Source: Nitrospirota bacterium (GTDB taxonomy: Bacteria; Nitrospirota; Nitrospiria; Nitrospirales; Nitrospiraceae). From it: a DNA stretch of 64,000 bases. The stretch covers positions 62,001 through 126,000 of the forward strand of contig JACRLR010000016.1 in the NCBI GenBank assembly GCA_016219645.1, read 5' to 3'. Both the position numbers and the translations under genes were made by a program. Position 1 is the first letter of the stretch. Each line of letters starts with the position of its first letter. The notes beneath the pieces were generated by a model, which saw nothing but the letters and a program-made list of their open reading frames with translations, did no database searches and had not been told where the DNA came from. This document shows positions 30,319 to 44,574 of the stretch, in pieces.

Positions 30319-31047
30319 ATGAAAACGAAACTTCTCGCGACGACTCAACCGGTCAGGGTGTTACTGGTGGACGATCATGAAGTCACCAGAGTCGGGTTGC
30401 GGGCCGTGCTCACTCGAGCGCGCGACATCAAGGTTGTCGGAGAAGCCGCTACTGCCGACGCTGCCATAGCTGCAGCTCTCGATCTCAATCCGGATGTGGT
30501 GCTCATGGATGTCCGCTTGCCCACTGGCGACGGAGTGGAGGCCTGTCGCGCCATCAGAGAGTCCTGCCCTGCCACGAAGGTACTCTTCCTCACCTCCTAT
30601 CCGGATAATGAGGCCGTGTTGGCGGCAGTTATCGGGGGGGCAGCCGGCTATCTGTTGAAACAAGTGGATGCTGAAGGCTTGCGGCAGGCTATTCATGCAG
30701 TGGCCCAGGGCCAGTCGATTCTTGACCCCGCGATTACCCAGCCGCTCTTGACCCGGGTGCGGCGACAAACAGATGAGGAATCCGAGCCCAAGCGAACGAC
30801 CCTCTCCACCCAGCAGCAACGAGTGCTTGCGCTTGTTGCCGAGGGAAAAACCAACAAGGAAATCGGTTCATCGCTCGACCTGAGCGATAAGACGGTGAAG
30901 AACTATATCCGGTTCATCTTCCAGAAGCTGAAAGTAACCAGACGCGCTCAAGCTGCGGCTCTTTTCATCCGTGACTCTGCCTCAGCGAGCCAGTCGGGCC
31001 AGGATTCATTTCCGAGGTTGGGTAAGACTTCCGCGTACCTCCGGTAA
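30319..31047 (+). CDS. NarL/DevR-type response regulator (orphan)
   Basis: A 242-residue two-domain regulator. The receiver (residues ~13-130) has acidic residues D18/D19 in LLVDDH, phosphoacceptor D64 in VLMDVRLP, the FLTSY switch and the Lys in LLKQVD. The C-terminal LuxR HTH (residues ~165-225) has LSTQQQRVLALVAEGKTNKE and LDLSDKTVKNYIRFIFQKL. No histidine kinase gene is beside it, so its partner is elsewhere. It precedes the FleQ-like gene by 418 bases on the same strand; regulatory linkage to motility is only inference. Confidence 0.85.
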   Translation: MKTKLLATTQPVRVLLVDDHEVTRVGLRAVLTRARDIKVVGEAATADAAIAAALDLNPDVVLMDVRLPTGDGVEACRAIRESCPATKVLFLTSYPDNEAVLAAVIGGAAGYLLKQVDAEGLRQAIHAVAQGQSILDPAITQPLLTRVRRQTDEESEPKRTTLSTQQQRVLALVAEGKTNKEIGSSLDLSDKTVKNYIRFIFQKLKVTRRAQAAALFIRDSASASQSGQDSFPRLGKTSAYLR

Positions 31048-31465
31048 CCGACCGCGATCCGGCTGTGCCCCCCCCCGCGCGCGATCCTGCGAATCGCTTC
31101 CTCTCTTTCCTTCAAGATCTCTAGTCGCGCCTTCGTGAGGACCTCGCATGTCTCGCTTGCGAGTCACTGCAACCATCCGACAGAACATGTAGTCCAAAAC
31201 AATAGAGCCGTAATAGAGCGTATAGGCTCTGCTTAATAGAGCCAATTGCGATATTAAGTAACCCCATAATCTCAGCATCAGTAGAGCTATTAAGCACTTT
31301 CTGATCTGGAGATCTCTAATACGCTTAGTATTGACGCGTTGCGTGTAGTTCGTCACAGCAAATCCCCGATAAGGTCGGTTTACGCCTATCACGTAATGAC
31401 CGGGATTCTCTGTGCCAGTAACGAACTGGTGTCATAGGCCATCACATTATTATGAGGAATACAGC
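31048..31465. other. AT-rich leader of the FleQ-like gene with inverted repeats
   Basis: Within 31200-31332: three copies of AATAGAGC, an inverted pair GCTTAATAG (31231-31239) / CTATTAAGC (31287-31295), and a short palindrome AATACGCTTAGTATT (31318-31332). The base composition is clearly lower in GC than its surroundings. It could hold operators or a structured leader for the downstream regulator. An open frame on the opposite strand (31006-31392) looks spurious. Confidence 0.4.
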
Positions 31466-32875
31466 ATGAGTCTCTTGTCTATTCTTGTGGTAGAGGACGA
31501 CACAGGCCTGCAGAGTCTGCTTCAGCGGCTGTTATCTCGGGAAGGTCGTCGGGTGACGATTGTCGGGAGCGGGCAGGAGGCCATACGCGTAGCCCAGGAG
31601 ATGCCTGTTCACATGCTGGTGACGGATTTGAAGCTGCCCGATATCGACGGCTGTGCCGTCCTGGAGCGCATTCTCCAGATCGATTCCAACGTGATTGGGA
31701 TTGTGATGACCGGCCACGGCTCAATCGACAGTGCTGTCAAAGCGATGAAGGCCGGCGCCTTTGATTTTCTCGCAAAACCGTTCGACAACGAAGTCCTTGC
31801 GAATCTGGTCGACAAGGCCGTGGAGGTGCATCGCCGTCGCGAGAACAAGCCATCGTCCCGGAGAGCCGTCAGTGAGCAATACCGGATGGAGCAGTTCGTC
31901 GGTACGAGCGAACCGATCCGGCGCGTGCTTGATTTTGTGGCAAAGGTTGCGGACTGCGACAGCACCGTCTTGATTCAAGGGGAGAGCGGGACCGGCAAGG
32001 AGTTGGTCGCGCGCATGCTGCATTTTAACAGTGAAACCAAAGACCGTCCGCTTGTCCCGGTCAATTGCGGCGCGATTCCCGAGAATCTCCTCGAATCTGA
32101 ATTATTCGGACACGAGAAGGGAGCGTTCACTGGCGCGGCGCATACGCGAATAGGCCGGTTTGAGGCGGCGCACGGCGGGACGATCTTTCTGGATGAAATC
32201 GGTGAGTTGAGCCTCGCACTGCAAGTCAAGCTGCTGCGGGTGCTGCAAGAGCGTTCGTTCGAACGGGTGGGGGGCAGCAGAACGATCGACGTGGATGTCC
32301 GTGTCGTGGCCGCGACCAATCAGGACCTGGAGCTGGCCGTGCAGCAGAAGCGGTTCCGTGAAGATCTCTACTATCGTCTGAATGTCATCCCTGTCACCAT
32401 TCCACCGTTGAGAGAGCGGCGCAGCGACATTCCCCAATTAGTGAATCATTTCTTGAAAAGAATGATGCGCGGGAGACGGGCTTCCGCGGCGAGCTGTTCT
32501 CCTGAGGCGCTGAGCTGTCTCATGGACTATCACTGGCCTGGAAATATCCGGGAATTGGAGAATATCATCGAGCGTCTCGTGGTCTTGAGTCGCTCGGGAA
32601 CGATCGAAGTCGCCGATCTTCCGGAGCGGCTGCAGCGCCGCCCGGTCTCTGCCGATCCGGCCGAGGCGCAGTTCATTCCCTTCAGCGATCAGGGGGTGAA
32701 CCTGTCGCGAGAGGTTGAGCAATTAGAGAACCGTCTCATCATCGGCGCGCTTCGACAAGCCAACGGGATTACGAGCAAGGCCGCCCAGCTGCTCCATGTA
32801 AACCGCACCACCCTCGTCGAGAAGATGAAGCGCAAGGGGTTTGCCTCGAAGACTCAAGGCTGCCCGGTCTTTTAG
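31466..32875 (+). CDS. fleQ: FleQ-like sigma-54 dependent transcription activator
   Basis: A 469-residue enhancer-binding protein, probably the flagellar master regulator. Receiver (1-120) with D11/D12 and phosphoacceptor D54 (VTDLKLPD); AAA+ domain (~150-385) with Walker A GESGTGKE, the sigma-54 contact GAFTGA and Walker B FLDEIGE; and a Fis-type HTH (~425-469) ending in NRTTLVEKMKRKGF, which closely matches the FleQ recognition-helix signature. Unlike classical FleQ, its receiver appears phosphorylatable. The ATG at 31466 has TGAGGAATACAGC upstream. A FleQ-box-like palindrome and sigma-54 promoter lie just downstream (33060, 33181). Confidence 0.85.
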   Translation: MSLLSILVVEDDTGLQSLLQRLLSREGRRVTIVGSGQEAIRVAQEMPVHMLVTDLKLPDIDGCAVLERILQIDSNVIGIVMTGHGSIDSAVKAMKAGAFDFLAKPFDNEVLANLVDKAVEVHRRRENKPSSRRAVSEQYRMEQFVGTSEPIRRVLDFVAKVADCDSTVLIQGESGTGKELVARMLHFNSETKDRPLVPVNCGAIPENLLESELFGHEKGAFTGAAHTRIGRFEAAHGGTIFLDEIGELSLALQVKLLRVLQERSFERVGGSRTIDVDVRVVAATNQDLELAVQQKRFREDLYYRLNVIPVTIPPLRERRSDIPQLVNHFLKRMMRGRRASAASCSPEALSCLMDYHWPGNIRELENIIERLVVLSRSGTIEVADLPERLQRRPVSADPAEAQFIPFSDQGVNLSREVEQLENRLIIGALRQANGITSKAAQLLHVNRTTLVEKMKRKGFASKTQGCPVF

Positions 32876-33195: not shown

Positions 33196-33212
33196 GACTG
33201 CTCTGTGTGGGT

Positions 33213-35369
33213 ATGAGTACCATGAACTCTTGCAATTGGTGCATCCTCGGCTCGCTTATGCTGGGCCTTCCACTGTATTCCGGTTTTGCCGGTGAGCTGA
33301 CAGATGCGTCGGTCACGCCATCACCGACCACTGTGAGTTCATCTCAAGCGGGCCTGGGGACGTCCCCAACGCGCATGGCCCTGCCGGACGATGGGCCCCG
33401 CTATGATCGAACCGTGGAGGGGGCCGGGGCCTTACAATTCCAGGCTGCGGTTGACGCACTTGGCAGCGGGCAGCATGCCATCGCCCGTGCCGGCTTCGAC
33501 AAGCTTGCCACTCTGGATTCCTCCAGCTCATTGATCCCGCCGTTGAAGGCCTTCCTGGCGGAACTTACCCTGATCGAGAATCCAACCGACCATGGCCGGC
33601 GAGACGCGATTGAGCAATATCGCAGCATCATCGGCCAGTATCCAAAAAATCCCAATGCGTTCCGGGCGCTCTGGCGAGTCGGCGATCTGTATGTCGAATT
33701 GCGATGGTATCAAGAGGCTGTCGGCGCCTATGAGTATGCGCTTTCCCTCGACCTGCCTCGTCCGGATGCGGACCGCTCCCTGCTTGCTTTGGGGGGCGTA
33801 CTTGGCGAGTTGGGTCGATGGACGGAAGCGGAACGGGCCTTCGACCAGGTTCGAAAACGGGCTACGGACGATCGCCTTGTCAAGAGAGCCACGTTGGAGC
33901 TGGCCAATGCGCTCTATGCCCAGTGGCGTAAGCCTGATGCAGTGCCGATATACGATCTCCTGTCCCGGCGCTGGCCTGATTTCCTCAAACACAATCCTGA
34001 TGCATTGCAGCAGTATGGCGACGCCCTCTTTGATATTCAGGAACTGAGAAGGGCCTGTGCAATCGATATGCTCTTGTACAACCTGTTTCCGTCAAACCGG
34101 CATGCTGGTACGGCGCTCGTCCGCCTCGGGGACAGCCATAGCCGGCTCGGCTTGCGAAGGCCGGCTGAGATTTTTTACACGGCTGCCCAAACCCAGTATC
34201 CAGATACAGCGGCAGGCGCTGTGGCTCGCATGCGGTTGTCGCAAATCGAACAGGAAATTGCGGCGTCGGCGGGAGAAGGACTCCTGCGTAAAAAGGTGGA
34301 GGGTATCATCCGGGGTAGCGGCATCTCGTATCTGGAGCCGTCCAGCGCAGAGGATCTCTATAAGACCATTGCGCTGGAACATCGTGATGACATGCTCGGC
34401 AGCGAAGCGCTGTTCCATTTGGCAGAGCACTATGAATTGCAAGGGAATCCTGCTCGCGGTATCCAGGTGTACCAAGACGTCACCCGGCGGGCAGGCGTCA
34501 TTCTCCATGATCCCTGGCCCCCGGCTGCGGGACTCCATCTGACCTCAGTATTGAAACCCCAGTTGGAAGCGGCACTCAAGGACAAGAAGGATATCCAGGC
34601 GCTCACGCTGTTTCATAGCCACGGGCAGGCTCCGGAACAGTATTACATCGGGACGCCTACGTTACTGGAGGTCGCCGATGTCCATCGACGGCTCGGTTTC
34701 CCGACCGAGGCGGTCCACCTCTATCAGACATTTGTGAAGGGCCGGAAGGTGCCCCCCCTTCACGAAGCGGTGCTTATCGGCCTGGGCGAAAGTTATATGG
34801 ATCAGTCAGACCCGTCGGCCGCCAGAAACGTATTCGAAAGTTTCCGTCTTCAGTATCCGCAGAGCCCGCGGTCTCCGTTGGTCTCACGGCAATTGACCGC
34901 GGCCATGCTTGAACAGGGAGATCGCCGGAGCGCCATCAGGGTTCTGAAGCGATGGGCGCGATTAGAACCGCGCGATGCGGCGCAAGACTGGATCTATGTG
35001 ACGCTTGCGCGGACGTTGGCAGAAGATCAACAGCCGGAGGAGGCTGTGGCGGCATTCGAGCGCGCATGGCGCCACAATGCGCTCCGGGCGCCACACGATA
35101 TTCTGCTGTATGCCGATCTGCTCGTGAAACTGCATCAACCGGAACGGGCTGCGGATCTCTACAAGGAGGCACTGAAGGCAGGGCCTGACCAGCCGGCGGC
35201 GGAATGGGCGCGTGTGCAGCTCGCCATGAACTCAGCGGCCAAGGATGGGAAAGAACCAGGGCCGAGGGCCGTGGCATCGGAGGCAGGCTTTGACGATCCG
35301 CTGCTCCATCGTGTTGCAGCGGCGGTGCAGATAAGCCTCCAAGCGGCCATGGGAAAGGAAGGGGAATAA
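33213..35369 (+). CDS. Exported TPR-repeat protein
   Basis: A ~718-residue protein with an N-terminal signal (CILGSLMLGLPLYSGFAG) and mostly tetratricopeptide-type helical repeats through to the C-terminus (examples: GRRDAIEQYRSIIGQYPKNP; LGGVLGELGRWTEAERAFDQ; AEDQQPEEAVAAFERAWRHN). It probably lies in the periplasm. It is the first gene of the sigma-54-driven operon, and its stop overlaps the kinase start (TAATG), so it is tightly coupled to FleSR signalling. Start may be ATG 33213 or 33222. No family-specific function is known; a scaffold or sensor role in flagellar assembly is an inference. Confidence 0.75.
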   Translation: MSTMNSCNWCILGSLMLGLPLYSGFAGELTDASVTPSPTTVSSSQAGLGTSPTRMALPDDGPRYDRTVEGAGALQFQAAVDALGSGQHAIARAGFDKLATLDSSSSLIPPLKAFLAELTLIENPTDHGRRDAIEQYRSIIGQYPKNPNAFRALWRVGDLYVELRWYQEAVGAYEYALSLDLPRPDADRSLLALGGVLGELGRWTEAERAFDQVRKRATDDRLVKRATLELANALYAQWRKPDAVPIYDLLSRRWPDFLKHNPDALQQYGDALFDIQELRRACAIDMLLYNLFPSNRHAGTALVRLGDSHSRLGLRRPAEIFYTAAQTQYPDTAAGAVARMRLSQIEQEIAASAGEGLLRKKVEGIIRGSGISYLEPSSAEDLYKTIALEHRDDMLGSEALFHLAEHYELQGNPARGIQVYQDVTRRAGVILHDPWPPAAGLHLTSVLKPQLEAALKDKKDIQALTLFHSHGQAPEQYYIGTPTLLEVADVHRRLGFPTEAVHLYQTFVKGRKVPPLHEAVLIGLGESYMDQSDPSAARNVFESFRLQYPQSPRSPLVSRQLTAAMLEQGDRRSAIRVLKRWARLEPRDAAQDWIYVTLARTLAEDQQPEEAVAAFERAWRHNALRAPHDILLYADLLVKLHQPERAADLYKEALKAGPDQPAAEWARVQLAMNSAAKDGKEPGPRAVASEAGFDDPLLHRVAAAVQISLQAAMGKEGE

Positions 35370-36643
35370 TGTTGAACGTACAGCCTGTCTCGGGAGCCAC
35401 GGATAGTGCGTTGTTGCATGAAGCGTTTCGAAGTTTCGACGATGCAGCTGCGACGTTGCAACAATCCTATCAGACCCTGACGTCACGGTTGGAGGAGCTG
35501 GACGTGGAACTTGCCGACCGCAACGAGGCGCTCGGCCGGAATCTGCGCGCCAATGAAGAATTGCGGGAGCACCTGACGGCGATTGTCGAGTCCCTCTCGA
35601 CCGGCTTGCTCGTGCTGGATACTGGAGGGACGATCACCCGTTGTAACCAGGCCGGCGAGCAACTGCTCGGACTGAAGCGTGAACAGATTCTGGGCCGTTC
35701 CTTAGCCGCCTGTCTCAAGGAGGCGCAGTTGGACGGCGATGCCTACCCCTTGACGACGCGACAGGGTGCGGCCGTCGCACTCTCCACACGCGCCTTGGAG
35801 ACCGGCGAAGGGCGCCACACAGGAAGTGTGGTCTTGATTCAGGACGTCACGGCGGTGCGGGAACTGGAGGACCGGCTGCAGCGCCGCAATCGGCTGGCGG
35901 CCATGGGTGAGATGGTCGGGCGGATTGCCCACGAAATTCGAAACCCCCTCGGCAGCATCGAACTGTTCGCGTCGATGTTGCGGCGCGATTTGAATGGTGT
36001 CCCGGCCTTGCGCGGATACGCCGAGCATATTTCATCGTCCGTCCACATGATGAATCGCCTCCTGACCAATCTTCTGGTCTATACCAAACCTGACTGCCCC
36101 CACGGCGAATGGCATGAGACAGAAGCCCTCATGCTGGATTCATTGACGTTGGCCGCCCATGCGATCGCGAACACCAGAGTCGACATTCGTCTGGAAGTCG
36201 ATCCTCTTGCGGCTCGAATCTGGTGCGATACAGGGCAACTCAAACAAGTCCTGCTGAACCTGATTTTGAACGGCATCCACGCCATGCCAGGCAGCGGGAC
36301 TCTGACGCTGTCGGCCTCCCTCATGGAGGGACAGGTTCCCGGAGGGCCGGCGCTCCGTCTCTCCGTTTCGGATACCGGTGCCGGGATCCCTGCGGCCCAG
36401 CGATCGAGGATTTTCGACCCCTTCTTTACGACAAAGGATGAAGGGACCGGATTAGGGTTGGCCATCGTCCACGCGATTGTCGAAGCGCATCAGGGCCGGA
36501 TCGACGTGGAGAGCTCTGAGGGGCGAGGGACGACGTTTACCATCGTGCTTCCACACGGTCCTGTCTCCGATCGGGATGATGGGATCGACATCTCGATGGC
36601 GACTGATGAGGGCCACTTCGTTGAAGAGGAGACATCCGCATGA
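35369..36643 (+). CDS. fleS: FleS-type PAS histidine kinase
   Basis: A 424-residue soluble kinase with no membrane helices. A coiled-coil N-terminus (LTSRLEELDVELADRNEALG) leads to a PAS domain (~70-170, VLDTGGTITRCNQAGEQLLG), an HisKA box with phospho-His in IAHEIRNPLGSIELFASML, and the HATPase motifs QVLLNLILNGIHAM (N), VSDTGAGIP (G1) and FDPFFTTKDEGTGLGLAIV (G2). This matches cytoplasmic FleS/FlrB kinases of the flagellar class III cascade. Start overlaps the TPR stop; its stop overlaps the regulator's ATG. Confidence 0.87.
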   Translation: MLNVQPVSGATDSALLHEAFRSFDDAAATLQQSYQTLTSRLEELDVELADRNEALGRNLRANEELREHLTAIVESLSTGLLVLDTGGTITRCNQAGEQLLGLKREQILGRSLAACLKEAQLDGDAYPLTTRQGAAVALSTRALETGEGRHTGSVVLIQDVTAVRELEDRLQRRNRLAAMGEMVGRIAHEIRNPLGSIELFASMLRRDLNGVPALRGYAEHISSSVHMMNRLLTNLLVYTKPDCPHGEWHETEALMLDSLTLAAHAIANTRVDIRLEVDPLAARIWCDTGQLKQVLLNLILNGIHAMPGSGTLTLSASLMEGQVPGGPALRLSVSDTGAGIPAAQRSRIFDPFFTTKDEGTGLGLAIVHAIVEAHQGRIDVESSEGRGTTFTIVLPHGPVSDRDDGIDISMATDEGHFVEEETSA

Positions 36644-38046
36644 ACGACCACGACATGGAAGGCCTTCCGGCGGATAGTCCTGCGCAGGGCGAGCGGATCT
36701 TAATCGTCGATGACGATCCATCTATGCGGATGGCGTTGATGGAGTCAGTTCGTCGCCTCGGGTATGACGTGCAGGGGGCGGTGGATGGTGTCGATGCAGT
36801 CGAACGTGTCAGCCGCTACAGGCCCTGGTTGGTGGTGACCGATCTGAAGATGCCTCGGCTTGGTGGTCTCGACCTGATCAAGGAGATCAAGAATCGCTCA
36901 CCACAGACGTTGATGGTCCTGATGACCGCCTACGGGACGGTGGAGACCGCCGTGGAGGCGATGAAGTACGGAGCAAGCGATTACATTCTCAAGCCGTTCT
37001 CCACCGATCTGTTCGAGCGGGTGATCGGGAATCTGAAAGCATCAGGCGCCCAGGCCTCGACGTCATCGTCTGAGCCGATCGACCCGCGGTCGATCCTGAC
37101 ACAAGACCCCGGCATGGTCCGTCTCCTCAGTACCGTTGAAGGGGTTGCCGTAAGCCAGGCGACGATCCTTATCAACGGAGAGAGCGGCACAGGGAAGGAA
37201 CTGTTGGCCCGTTTTATCCATAGCAGAAGCCCTCGCGCGCACCGCCCGTTTATCGCCGTCAATTGTGCGGCCTTGCCGGATGGACTCTTGGAGAGTGAAC
37301 TGTTCGGCCATGAGCGTGGCGCATTTACCGGGGCCATCATGAAGAAGATCGGCAAGTTCGAAATGGCGCACACCGGCACCCTGCTGCTCGATGAAATCAG
37401 CGAAATGAACATGGGTCTACAGGCCAAGTTGCTCCGTGTGATCCAGGAACGGGAAGTGGATCGAGTGGGAGGTCGTGAGCCGGTCTCCGTCAATATCCGG
37501 GTCATTGCGACGACAAACCGCTCGCTCTATCACGAAGTGGAGCAGGGGCGGTTTCGGGAGGACCTGTATTACCGACTGAATGTGTTTCCCATCATGGTCC
37601 CGCCGTTACGGGAACGGCCTGCGGACATCCCGTTGCTCGCGAGGCATTTCGTGGCCGTCTCCGCGGCGCGCAATAGCCTTCCGTTGCCGACGGTATCGGC
37701 GGAGGCCTATGCCACACTTCAAGATAGACGGTGGAAAGGGAACGTGCGTGAACTGGAGAATGTCATGGAACGTGCCGTGCTGTTAGCCGGGAAAGAGCCG
37801 ATTCTCCCGTGCCACTTGTTGCTGGAGTCCGACGGACAACCGCTGTCTCCTACTCCGGCCCCATCCGTGCCACAGCCTTCCGGGAACGGGTCGTTGTGGG
37901 AAATGGAGCGGGAACTGATTTTTCAAACTCTGGCGCGGGTGAGGGAGAATCGCACCCATGCGGCGAAAGAACTGGGCATCAGCATTCGCACCTTGCGGAA
38001 CAAGCTTCGAGAGTATCGGGGGGCCGGTTGTCAGCTCGCTCCATAA
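36640..38046 (+). CDS. fleR: FleR-type sigma-54 response regulator
   Basis: A 468-residue NtrC-type activator, the likely partner of the adjacent FleS-type kinase. The receiver (residues ~18-135) has D24/D25 and phosphoacceptor D68 (VVTDLKMPR); the AAA+ domain (~155-385) has GESGTGKE, GAFTGA and LLDEISE; a Fis HTH closes the protein (NRTHAAKELGISIRTLRNKL). All catalytic motifs are intact. The 4-base ATGA overlap with fleS shows co-translation. It would drive a later flagellar class, matching its position just before flgB. Confidence 0.88.
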   Translation: MNDHDMEGLPADSPAQGERILIVDDDPSMRMALMESVRRLGYDVQGAVDGVDAVERVSRYRPWLVVTDLKMPRLGGLDLIKEIKNRSPQTLMVLMTAYGTVETAVEAMKYGASDYILKPFSTDLFERVIGNLKASGAQASTSSSEPIDPRSILTQDPGMVRLLSTVEGVAVSQATILINGESGTGKELLARFIHSRSPRAHRPFIAVNCAALPDGLLESELFGHERGAFTGAIMKKIGKFEMAHTGTLLLDEISEMNMGLQAKLLRVIQEREVDRVGGREPVSVNIRVIATTNRSLYHEVEQGRFREDLYYRLNVFPIMVPPLRERPADIPLLARHFVAVSAARNSLPLPTVSAEAYATLQDRRWKGNVRELENVMERAVLLAGKEPILPCHLLLESDGQPLSPTPAPSVPQPSGNGSLWEMERELIFQTLARVRENRTHAAKELGISIRTLRNKLREYRGAGCQLAP

Positions 38047-41231: not shown

Positions 41232-42230
41232 ATGTCCACACCACTCACCGGCGAGCAAAAGGCGGCCATTCTTCTGAAAGCCATCGGGGAGGACGCCGCG
41301 GCGATGGTCATGAAGAGCCTTGATCCCAAGGAGATCCGTCGGCTAGGGGCCTCTATGAACGCGACGGCCAATATTACAAGGGAAGAAGAATCGGCCGTCA
41401 TCGACGAGTTTGAAAAGGCGAGCGCAAGCGGTGACGTGGCATTTCATGGAAAAGAATACATCAAAACTATTCTCTCCAAGGCGCTCGGTCAGGAAAAAGC
41501 GAACCGACTGCTCGAGTCTATGACCAGTAAGGTGTATCCGGGACTCGACGCCATGAAGTGGGTTGATGCCAAGGCCGCTTCACAAATGATCAAGACCGAG
41601 CATCCCCAAACGATCTCCGTGATTCTCGCGCATATGGATCCGGACCAGGCCGGCACCGTTATGAGGGACTTACCCGAAGCCCTTCGAGCGGATGTCGCCT
41701 TGCGCCTTGCGACGATGGAGGACTTGCAGCCGAGCGTGCTCGAAGAACTCAGCGATGCGCTGCAGAGTTCTCTCATCGCGAGCGCCGGCACTCGCGCGAC
41801 GACGGTCGGAGGCGCTGAAGCCGCGGCCAATATTCTTACGACCCTCGACAAGGCTACCGAGGGGAGCATCCTGTCGAAAATCGCCGAACGGGATCAGCTT
41901 TTGGCCGATACGATCAGAGGACTGATGTTTGTCTTCGACGACCTGATCAAGCTCGACGACCGTGGCATGCAAGAGCTCATGAAAGAAATCAGTAAAGAGG
42001 ATCTTCCTGTGGCGCTCCGTGGAGCGAGTCCGGAAACCAAGGAGAAGTTCCTCAAGAATATGTCAAGCCGAGCGGCGGAGATGTTGAAGGACGACATGGA
42101 GGCGAGGGGACCGGTGAAGGTGGCGGATGTCGAGAAGGCGCAGCAGAACATCCTCAAAGTCTGCCGGAAGCTTGAAGAGGAAGGGCGCATCGTCATTGCC
42201 GGGGGGGGCGAAGGGGAGGCGGTGCTGTAA
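41232..42230 (+). CDS. fliG: Flagellar motor switch protein FliG
   Basis: A 332-residue rotor protein with N, middle and C domains. N-domain AILLKAIGEDAAAMVMKSLD; middle EHPQTISVILAHMDPDQAG (the EHPQT motif); C-domain FDDLIKLDDRGMQELMKEIS and charged torque helix near DDMEARGPVKVADVEKAQQN. The stop TAA directly abuts the next ATG (TAAATG). Confidence 0.95.
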   Translation: MSTPLTGEQKAAILLKAIGEDAAAMVMKSLDPKEIRRLGASMNATANITREEESAVIDEFEKASASGDVAFHGKEYIKTILSKALGQEKANRLLESMTSKVYPGLDAMKWVDAKAASQMIKTEHPQTISVILAHMDPDQAGTVMRDLPEALRADVALRLATMEDLQPSVLEELSDALQSSLIASAGTRATTVGGAEAAANILTTLDKATEGSILSKIAERDQLLADTIRGLMFVFDDLIKLDDRGMQELMKEISKEDLPVALRGASPETKEKFLKNMSSRAAEMLKDDMEARGPVKVADVEKAQQNILKVCRKLEEEGRIVIAGGGEGEAVL

Positions 42231-43289
42231 ATGGAACTTGCGTCGAACGGACAGGCGACTCTCACCCAGCCCTGCGTCAGTTCCGGTGGGCGACGGGAGA
42301 GCGCAATCTTGGTGGTCGACGATGAAGAGGCGATCCGTGAATTGTTGGTGAGGCTGCTGCAGTCGGCGGGGCACCGCGTGCGCGCGGTTGGATCGGCGCG
42401 GGAAGCTCGTGCGGCACTAAAAGAATTTCCGGTGTCGCTGATGATTACGGACGTCAAACTGCCGGATCAGGATGGCATCGCGTTGCTCCAGCAGGCCTGT
42501 GATCTCGATCACCGCATGATGGGGCTGGTGATGACCGGATATGGAACCGTCGATCTCGCAGTTCAGGCGATGAAGGCAGGAGCGGCGGAGTTTCTGATGA
42601 AGCCGTTCGACAACAAGGCGCTCCAATTGACCGTCAATCGCCTCCTCGATCTCTATCACCTGCGGTCGGAGAATACGATCCTCAAGCAGGCGGTGGTTCG
42701 TGCTGCGGGGGTTCGCTGTCGCAGTCTCGCGCTGACCGATTTCGATACCGGCCATCGATTTGTCGGAGATCAGAGCCAATCAGACTATGATCAAGGGATT
42801 GCGGAGGGTGAACGGCGAGCCGGCGCACGAGTTGCGGAAGCCAGACGGCAGGAGCAGCAGCTCTTGGCCGAAACAGTCCGGCGTTTCGACGACCGGTGGA
42901 CGTCGCTTCATCAGACCGTCGAAGAGGACGTGACGGCCCTGGCGTTCAGTCTGGCGACACGCATCCTGCGCGATATGGTGATCGATCGGCGGGATGCCGT
43001 ACTTGGATTGTTGAAATCGGCCTTGGCGACGGTTCGGGATGCGGGAGTCGTCACTGTCAGAACGCATCCGTCCGACGCACCGATACTTGAATCGGCTTGC
43101 GCGGAGTTGTGCCGCGACCGGCCGACATCGTTTACGCTGCATGTGGAAGGCGATTCGTCTCTCTCCAGGGGAAGTTGCGTGGTGGAAACCATGAATCGAC
43201 TGGTCGACGCCTCGCTGGACCGGCAGTTGCTGAGGCTCGGAGAGGTCTTACAGAAACGAGGCCGCCATGAATCTCGTCGATCTGATTGA
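42231..43289 (+). CDS. fliH: Receiver-FliH fusion (flagellar export ATPase regulator)
   Basis: A 352-residue protein, much longer than normal FliH (about 220-240). Residues ~25-140 form a complete CheY/NtrC-type receiver: acidic pair D30/D31, phosphoacceptor D74 (ITDVKLPDQDG), T102 (VMTGYGT) and K124 (FLMKPFDN). Residues ~185-345 form FliH: a coiled helix (GIAEGERRAGARVAEARRQE) then the C-domain (LATRILRD, TVRTHPSD, GSCVVETMNRLVDASLDRQL). Position between fliG and fliI confirms the FliH role, holding FliI and FliN. It overlaps fliI by 23 bases. The receiver resembles that of the FleQ-like protein (MTGxGxxDxAVxAMKAGA, KPFDN). Phosphorylation could tune export. Confidence 0.9.
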   Translation: MELASNGQATLTQPCVSSGGRRESAILVVDDEEAIRELLVRLLQSAGHRVRAVGSAREARAALKEFPVSLMITDVKLPDQDGIALLQQACDLDHRMMGLVMTGYGTVDLAVQAMKAGAAEFLMKPFDNKALQLTVNRLLDLYHLRSENTILKQAVVRAAGVRCRSLALTDFDTGHRFVGDQSQSDYDQGIAEGERRAGARVAEARRQEQQLLAETVRRFDDRWTSLHQTVEEDVTALAFSLATRILRDMVIDRRDAVLGLLKSALATVRDAGVVTVRTHPSDAPILESACAELCRDRPTSFTLHVEGDSSLSRGSCVVETMNRLVDASLDRQLLRLGEVLQKRGRHESRRSD

Positions 43290-44574
43290 AGATACAAATC
43301 CTCTTGTCGTCTCGGGCCGTGTGGCCCAGGCCGTCGGGATCGTGATCGAGGGCTATGGCCCCATGACGTCGGTCGGGGAATTGTGCGATGTCACGCGCGA
43401 AGATGGAGAGGGAAATGTGCCGGCTGAAGTGGTCGGGTTTCGCGGCGATCGTGTGTTGCTGATGCCGCTCGGAGAGATGCGCGGGATCGGCCCCGGCAGC
43501 CGGCTCTTCATGAAAGGCCACTGCGCCTCGGTCCCAGTCGGTCCCCAACTGCTCGGGCGCGTGCTCAATGGGCTGGGAGAGCCGTTGGACGGGCGCGGTC
43601 CTCTGATGACCGAGCACCGATACCCGCTGCATGCCGCGCCGATCAATCCTCTGATGAGAACCCGCATTACCGAACCGCTTGATCTGGGCATCCGGGCGAT
43701 CAATGCCTGTTTGACTTGTGGCCGGGGTCAGAAGGTCGGCATCTTCGCCAGTTCCGGCGTCGGGAAGAGCGTCTTGCTCGGGATGATCAGCCGCTATACG
43801 AAGGCCGACGTGAATGTCATCGCCCTCATCGGCGAGCGGGGACGTGAAGTCAACGAATTCCTGGAACGAGACCTGACTCCTGAGGCGCTCAGTCGCTCGG
43901 TGGTGATCGTGGCGACGTCGGACCAGCCGCCGTTAGTGCGGTTACGAGGTGCGTTGGTTGCGACGGCGGTTGCGGAGTACTTTCGAGACTGCGGCAGACA
44001 GGTGCTCTTGATGATGGACTCACTCACCCGCCTGGCCCATAGCCAACGGGAAGTCGGGCTCGCCATCGGGGAGCCACCGACGACAAAAGGGTACACCCCC
44101 TCTGTTTTTACGATGTTGCCCAAGCTCCTGGAGCGAGTCGGGACTTGCTCCGGTTCCGGCGCCATCACCGGACTCTATACGGTCCTCATGGAGAGTGATG
44201 AGCTCGCCGATCCCATTGCGGAGACGGCTCGATCGATTCTGGACGGCCACATTGTGCTCTCACGGCAGTTGGCCGCGCGCAATCATTTCCCGGCAATCGA
44301 CCTCCTGAACAGCACGAGTCGGGTGATGAAAGACATTGTGGGGCGAGACCACTATAGGGCGGCCCGGTCCATGCTCGAGCTTCAGGCGCGGTATCAGCAA
44401 TCCGAGGATCTCATTTTGCTCGGCGCCTATAAAGCAGGCGCCAATCGTGATCTCGACAAGGCCGTGGGGGCTCAAGACGGCATCAATGCCTTTCTTCGTC
44501 AGGACATCGAACGATCTTTCTCACTCGATGCTTCGATCGACGACTTGCTGACGCTGGTGAAGGCGACAGCATGA
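43267..44574 (+). CDS. fliI: Flagellum-specific ATPase FliI
   Basis: A 435-residue F1-type ATPase that energises flagellar type III export. Walker A in FASSGVGKSVLLG (about residues 160-172), Walker B VLLMMDSLTRLAHSQREVGL, and the YTPSVFTMLPKLLERVG region. It begins inside the fusion-fliH gene (23-base overlap) and ends with an ATGA overlap with fliJ, so the three are co-translated and probably co-assembled. Confidence 0.95.
   Translation: MNLVDLIEDTNPLVVSGRVAQAVGIVIEGYGPMTSVGELCDVTREDGEGNVPAEVVGFRGDRVLLMPLGEMRGIGPGSRLFMKGHCASVPVGPQLLGRVLNGLGEPLDGRGPLMTEHRYPLHAAPINPLMRTRITEPLDLGIRAINACLTCGRGQKVGIFASSGVGKSVLLGMISRYTKADVNVIALIGERGREVNEFLERDLTPEALSRSVVIVATSDQPPLVRLRGALVATAVAEYFRDCGRQVLLMMDSLTRLAHSQREVGLAIGEPPTTKGYTPSVFTMLPKLLERVGTCSGSGAITGLYTVLMESDELADPIAETARSILDGHIVLSRQLAARNHFPAIDLLNSTSRVMKDIVGRDHYRAARSMLELQARYQQSEDLILLGAYKAGANRDLDKAVGAQDGINAFLRQDIERSFSLDASIDDLLTLVKATA

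Follow-up and report, generated by a model that had tools for sequence, protein, structure and literature searches.

A response-regulator receiver fused to FliH across flagellated Nitrospiraceae suggests a signalling input to the flagellar export apparatus

Why should the gene that occupies the fliH position of a flagellar cluster encode, ahead of FliH itself, a receiver of the kind that response regulators carry? The question is raised by a gene in the window, the 64,000-nucleotide stretch of a Nitrospirota contig analysed here (Table 1), in which one unbroken reading frame starts with an ATG directly after the fliG stop codon (42228-42230) and runs at its 3' end into fliI (start 43267). A Pfam search recovers both Response_reg, at residues 26-135 (E 1e-24; 87.3 bits against a curated cutoff of 30.2), and the FliH domain (PF02108), at residues 207-334 (E 8e-16; 58.6 bits, cutoff 24.1), each far above its threshold. 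The first-pass annotation had described a receiver joined to FliH with a complete set of phosphorylation residues, and both points hold: the five residues D30, D31, D74, T102 and K124 are all found. The protein gave no Pfam match to a sigma-54 AAA+ domain or HTH, and shares only its receiver with the NtrC/FleQ class. It is the sole FliH of the genome, in which no second, ordinary FliH was found.

The gene lies in a flagellar cluster. Its Pfam-assigned neighbours are FliG, FliI and FliJ; upstream are a FleQ-like sigma-54 activator, a TPR protein, a FleS-like kinase and FleR, and downstream an SRP54-type GTPase (FlhF-like), a ParA-type ATPase (FlhG-like), FlhA and a sigma-70-family factor. The TPR protein (720 residues, 33207-35369), between the FleQ-like gene and fleS, keeps this place throughout the family and in the loci of order and class outgroups, and a LuxR-type response regulator (receiver plus GerE) is encoded at 30319-31047, just upstream of the FleQ-like gene.

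Table 1. Features of the receiver-FliH locus and its surroundings (window coordinates).
Feature	Coordinates	Strand	Basis
Receiver-FliH fusion gene, 352 aa	42231..43289	+	ORF, Pfam, genome search
Receiver domain (residues 24-136), FleQ-like type, with D30, D31, D74, T102, K124	42300..42638	+	Pfam, conservation, tree
Codon of predicted phosphoacceptor D74	42450..42452	+	Invariant in 65/65 and 80/80 fusions
Alpha-5 extended as signalling helix (residues 128-158, ...LRSENTILKQ...)	42612..42704	+	AlphaFold2; dN/dS
Conserved linker (residues 159-184), low model confidence, aligns with N-terminal stretch of ordinary FliH	42705..42782	+	AlphaFold2, alignment, dN/dS 0.14
FliH stalk helix (185-252) and C-terminal domain (253-352)	42783..43286	+	Pfam FliH 207-334, AlphaFold2
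fliG, directly upstream of fusion gene	41232..42230	+	ORF, Pfam
fliI, export ATPase, overlaps fusion gene 3' end	43267..44574	+	ORF, Pfam
FleQ-like regulator receiver, inferred source lineage of FliH receiver	31481..31810	+	Pfam, genome search, tree, residue comparison
FleS-like kinase and FleR-like regulator, two-component pair of flagellar cluster	35369..38046	+	Pfam, contact residues

We considered how widely this architecture is distributed, using two overlapping sets of fusions: 65 loci read in a survey of Nitrospiraceae, and 80 loci from a separate scan of named genomes with patterns specific to the fusion's receiver and linker. Both domains sit in one ORF at all 80 loci retrieved from named genomes, among them the chromosomes of Candidatus Nitrospira defluvii (FP929003.1) and Nitrospira moscoviensis (NZ_CP011801.1), and the same fusion was read in the 65 family loci. 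Nitrospira are common nitrite-oxidising bacteria. A FliH match is present in 129 of 175 family genomes and FliG in 131 of 172, so that where a family genome has no FliH, FliG is mostly missing too; many of the other in-family FliH matches are open frames of fusion size, judged by that size rather than by individual reading. The fusion is present in nearly all sampled flagellated Nitrospira relatives (Nitrospiraceae). Five genomes, spread over three sister genera within the family (L047, L048, L051, L067, L068), have plain FliH in an unchanged gene order, and ordinary FliH with this gene order is found as well in relatives at the level of order and class. Among the matches listed from 296 Nitrospirota genomes, FliH open frames outside the family span 170-313 residues and none is an independent receiver-FliH fusion; the longest (313 residues, in G347) has no receiver match. 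Within the phylum Nitrospirota, and among the matches listed, the fusion appears restricted to Nitrospiraceae. On a FliF+FliG+FliI tree rooted on plain-FliH outgroups from the order and class, fused versus plain FliH needs a single change (support of the split, 79). One gain of the receiver is therefore the simplest reading, with the deepest branching of the family not firmly resolved. The two most divergent confirmed fusions (L049 and L050; G187 and G065) carry longer N-terminal tails, and their acidic pair reads E-D rather than D-D.

Where did the receiver come from? Besides its own gene, the best match in the genome to the FliH receiver is the receiver of the FleQ-like regulator (45%, 1e-32; the next match, 38%, 5e-22; 57 matching places). 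The motif MTGxGxxDxAVxAMKAGA...KPFDN is common to the fusion and the FleQ-like protein (ORF 31412, Met 31466) and absent from FleR (36640), which agrees with an earlier suggestion that the resemblance to the FleQ-like protein is the closer one and that the domain may have been copied from it. A receiver tree (125 columns) built from FliH receivers, 25 further receivers encoded in the genome, and those of FleQ-like and FleR proteins from the family and outgroups places the FliH receivers as one group (87/88) within a FleQ-like plus FliH group (96/91), apart from FleR, although 125 columns do not fix their exact place inside the FleQ-like clade. Residues L77, D81, D93 and G103 are likewise common to the FleQ-like and FliH receivers and not found in FleR. 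Because genome match, tree and shared residues agree, the view that the FliH receiver arose by copying of the FleQ-like one is well supported; FleR was rejected as the source by the tree. The FleQ-like gene, complete with receiver, occurs in outgroups that have plain FliH and is thus older than the fusion. The receiver of the FleQ-like regulator (31412-32875) is itself intact, with equivalents of D74, T102 and K124 in 34 of 34 rows, and this regulator may therefore be phosphorylated in its own right. Pseudomonas FleQ, by contrast, is not known to keep an intact receiver.

For most members, a degenerate receiver is rejected by the conserved active-site residues. D74 and K124 are invariant in both sets of fusions (65/65 and 80/80, overlapping), position 102 is T or S in every fusion row but one, and position 30 is D or E in all rows that cover it. 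D31 is kept in 58 of 64 rows and lost in one subclade (L058, L060, L061, L078, L081) and in G033. In that subclade and in L064 the residue is A, H or G instead (VDADE, VDHDE, VDGDA), with D74 and K124 kept; such fusions are possibly a phosphorylation-impaired variant. The median dN/dS within the genus comes to 0.07 in the signalling helix (137-158), 0.11 in the receiver, 0.13 in FliH and 0.14 in the linker, compared with 0.39 over the initial 23 residues; purifying selection on the receiver equals that on FliH. In addition, L86, R95, R137, L138 and L139 are fixed or nearly so in FliH receivers and uncommon in FleQ-like ones, as would be expected of a new interface. Together the invariant D74 and K124, the low dN/dS and these FliH-specific residues make a conserved phosphorylation-type function of the receiver likely. 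We also rejected an internal translation start that would yield a receiver-free FliH: no start codon within residues 132-215 is shared by as many as half of the 65 fusions, the one start that common lies at residue 131, within the receiver, and no clear ribosome site precedes the few internal starts of the gene.

An AlphaFold2 model of the fusion (mean pLDDT 77, pTM 0.41) has a confident receiver whose alpha-5 continues unbroken to the end of the signalling helix, a low-confidence linker (160-181), the stalk helix and then the C-terminal domain; at this pTM the mutual placement of receiver and FliH domains in the model is not reliable. The nearest solved folds of the modelled receiver, by Foldseek, are the NtrC1 and FleR receivers, and 1zy2 and 1qkk/1l5y are among its best structure and sequence matches. 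Receivers with this helix type (NtrC1/DctD) commonly dimerise. The join coincides with the N-terminus of ordinary FliH, where the conserved linker aligns. In Salmonella, FliH contacts FliN and FlhA through its N-terminal end, dimerises through its middle and binds FliI with its C-terminus (PMC9114704). Since the join falls at what is, in Salmonella, the FliN/FlhA-binding end, we favour control of docking at the C-ring and FlhA rather than of FliI/FliJ binding. No Salmonella-type Trp motif (Trp-7/Trp-10) can be recognised in the linker alignment, and it is by position and homology only that the linker would be the FliN/FlhA docking segment.

We suggest the following model. A receiver copied from a FleQ-like regulator would have been gained once, early in Nitrospiraceae, as the trees support, and the FliH half would still be a dimeric stalk carrying FliI, as expected from homology. 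Phosphorylation of D74 would then probably rearrange the receiver pair together with the helix running on into the stalk, this rearrangement would alter docking of FliH2-FliI on FliN/FlhA, and a two-component signal would thereby tune flagellar export post-transcriptionally. With D74 and K124 invariant and the receiver's dN/dS low, phospho-regulation of FliH is plausible. To the proposal as a whole, a sole FliH with a receiver at its basal-body-docking end and phosphorylation tuning export, we give an even chance of being correct.

Among the alternatives, the one that survives best, while still unlikely in our estimation, is that receiver and helix serve the FliH stalk constitutively, as a dimer cap or a docking knob, with phosphorylation vestigial or absent. 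The readiness of such receivers to dimerise, the presence of 1zy2 and 1qkk/1l5y among the best matches and the disappearance of D31 from a subclade all suit this explanation, and the FliH-specific fixed surface residues would fit a fixed interface as well. FliH, moreover, acts as a dimer (PMC9114704). A pure scaffold, however, would have no need of D74, K124 and T/S102, which nearly all fusions retain.

If the receiver is indeed phosphorylated, which kinase might act on it, and to what end? We compared 11 kinase-contact positions, six in alpha-1 and five in beta-5/alpha-5, chosen from general knowledge of kinase-receiver pairs. On average the FliH receiver matches the FleR of its own genome at 2.8/11 of these (about 8/11 differ) and the FleQ-like regulator at 2.9/11, so this comparison with the same-genome FleR and FleQ-like receivers picks out no donor kinase. 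The numbers bear on a second alternative, in which the receiver is a phosphate sink or assembly reporter that draws phosphate from a flagellar kinase and lowers phosphorylation of the FleQ-like regulator or FleR, so that FliH availability would inform transcription rather than export being gated. Descent of the receiver from a FleQ-like regulator fits this idea, as does the dependence of the FleS-type kinase of P. aeruginosa on basal body and export apparatus for its activity (PMC7064773), but contact residues that track neither same-genome partner speak against it and make it quite unlikely.

The first-pass annotation had offered a more specific scheme, in which FleS phosphorylates the receiver and so gates FliI/FliJ docking. 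FleS is the kinase of the same conserved cluster, and its relatives are basal-body dependent (PMC7064773), but FleR hardly varies at its alpha-1 contact positions, and FliH receivers lack most of these residues. Since their contact residues are unlike those of FleR, FleS is not specially favoured as phosphate donor. The gating half of the scheme is less well supported too, because the receiver sits at the putative FliN/FlhA end and FliI, in Salmonella, binds the opposite, C-terminal end of FliH (PMC9114704); we regard the combination as improbable. Least credible of all is an artefact of frameshift, misassembly or chance gene joining, to which the same one-ORF architecture in close relatives, at 80/80 named-genome and 65 family loci with closed chromosomes included, leaves a negligible probability.

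How does a FliH regulated by phosphorylation, as we favour, compare with known systems? With ordinary FliH (PF02108; SctL/YscL family), the stalk of FliI, the fusion shares the stalk helix, the C-terminal domain, the fliG-fliH-fliI-fliJ order and its single copy; what ordinary FliH lacks is the N-terminal receiver and signalling helix. With FleQ-like and NtrC-class sigma-54 regulators it shares the DD-D-T-K set and the MTGxG and AMKAGA motifs, its receiver being nested in the FleQ-like clade, whereas their AAA+ and HTH domains are missing and FliH stands as the output. FlgSR, FlrBC and FleSR likewise tie two-component signalling to assembly of the basal body and export apparatus (PMC7064773), but there the apparatus informs transcription, and the fusion hints at signalling that reaches the apparatus itself. 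For the export ATPase complex, a direct signalling input is known from c-di-GMP, a second messenger acting on FliI (PMC4591828); in the fusion the input would be the predicted aspartyl phosphorylation of a receiver on FliH. Finally, like CheY at the rotor switch, the fused receiver would act at the C-ring region, but CheY is a free protein that controls rotation, and the receiver here is a covalent part of FliH and NtrC/FleQ-like rather than CheY-like.

In the open-access literature we found no published description of a receiver on FliH, nor of aspartyl phosphorylation acting on the export ATPase, and a Nitrospira genome paper that covers flagella, FleQ and FleSR leaves FliH unmentioned (PMC5767232). 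We rate receiver-bearing FliH as a new form both of FliH and of response-regulator output. The known targets of flagellar two-component systems are genes (FleSR, FlgSR) or rotation (CheY), and a receiver in FliH would add the export apparatus. The claim hinges on one Asp of one protein and is hence simply testable. The sequences suggest that in these bacteria a two-component signal acts directly on the building of the flagellum, instead of on genes alone. The broader reading, an ancient rewiring throughout the family that transferred the receiver of a transcription regulator to the export ATPase stalk and made the machine itself a direct target of aspartyl phosphorylation, is in our judgement evenly poised between right and wrong; the fusion itself has been kept under purifying selection in nearly all sampled flagellated members of a globally important nitrifier family.
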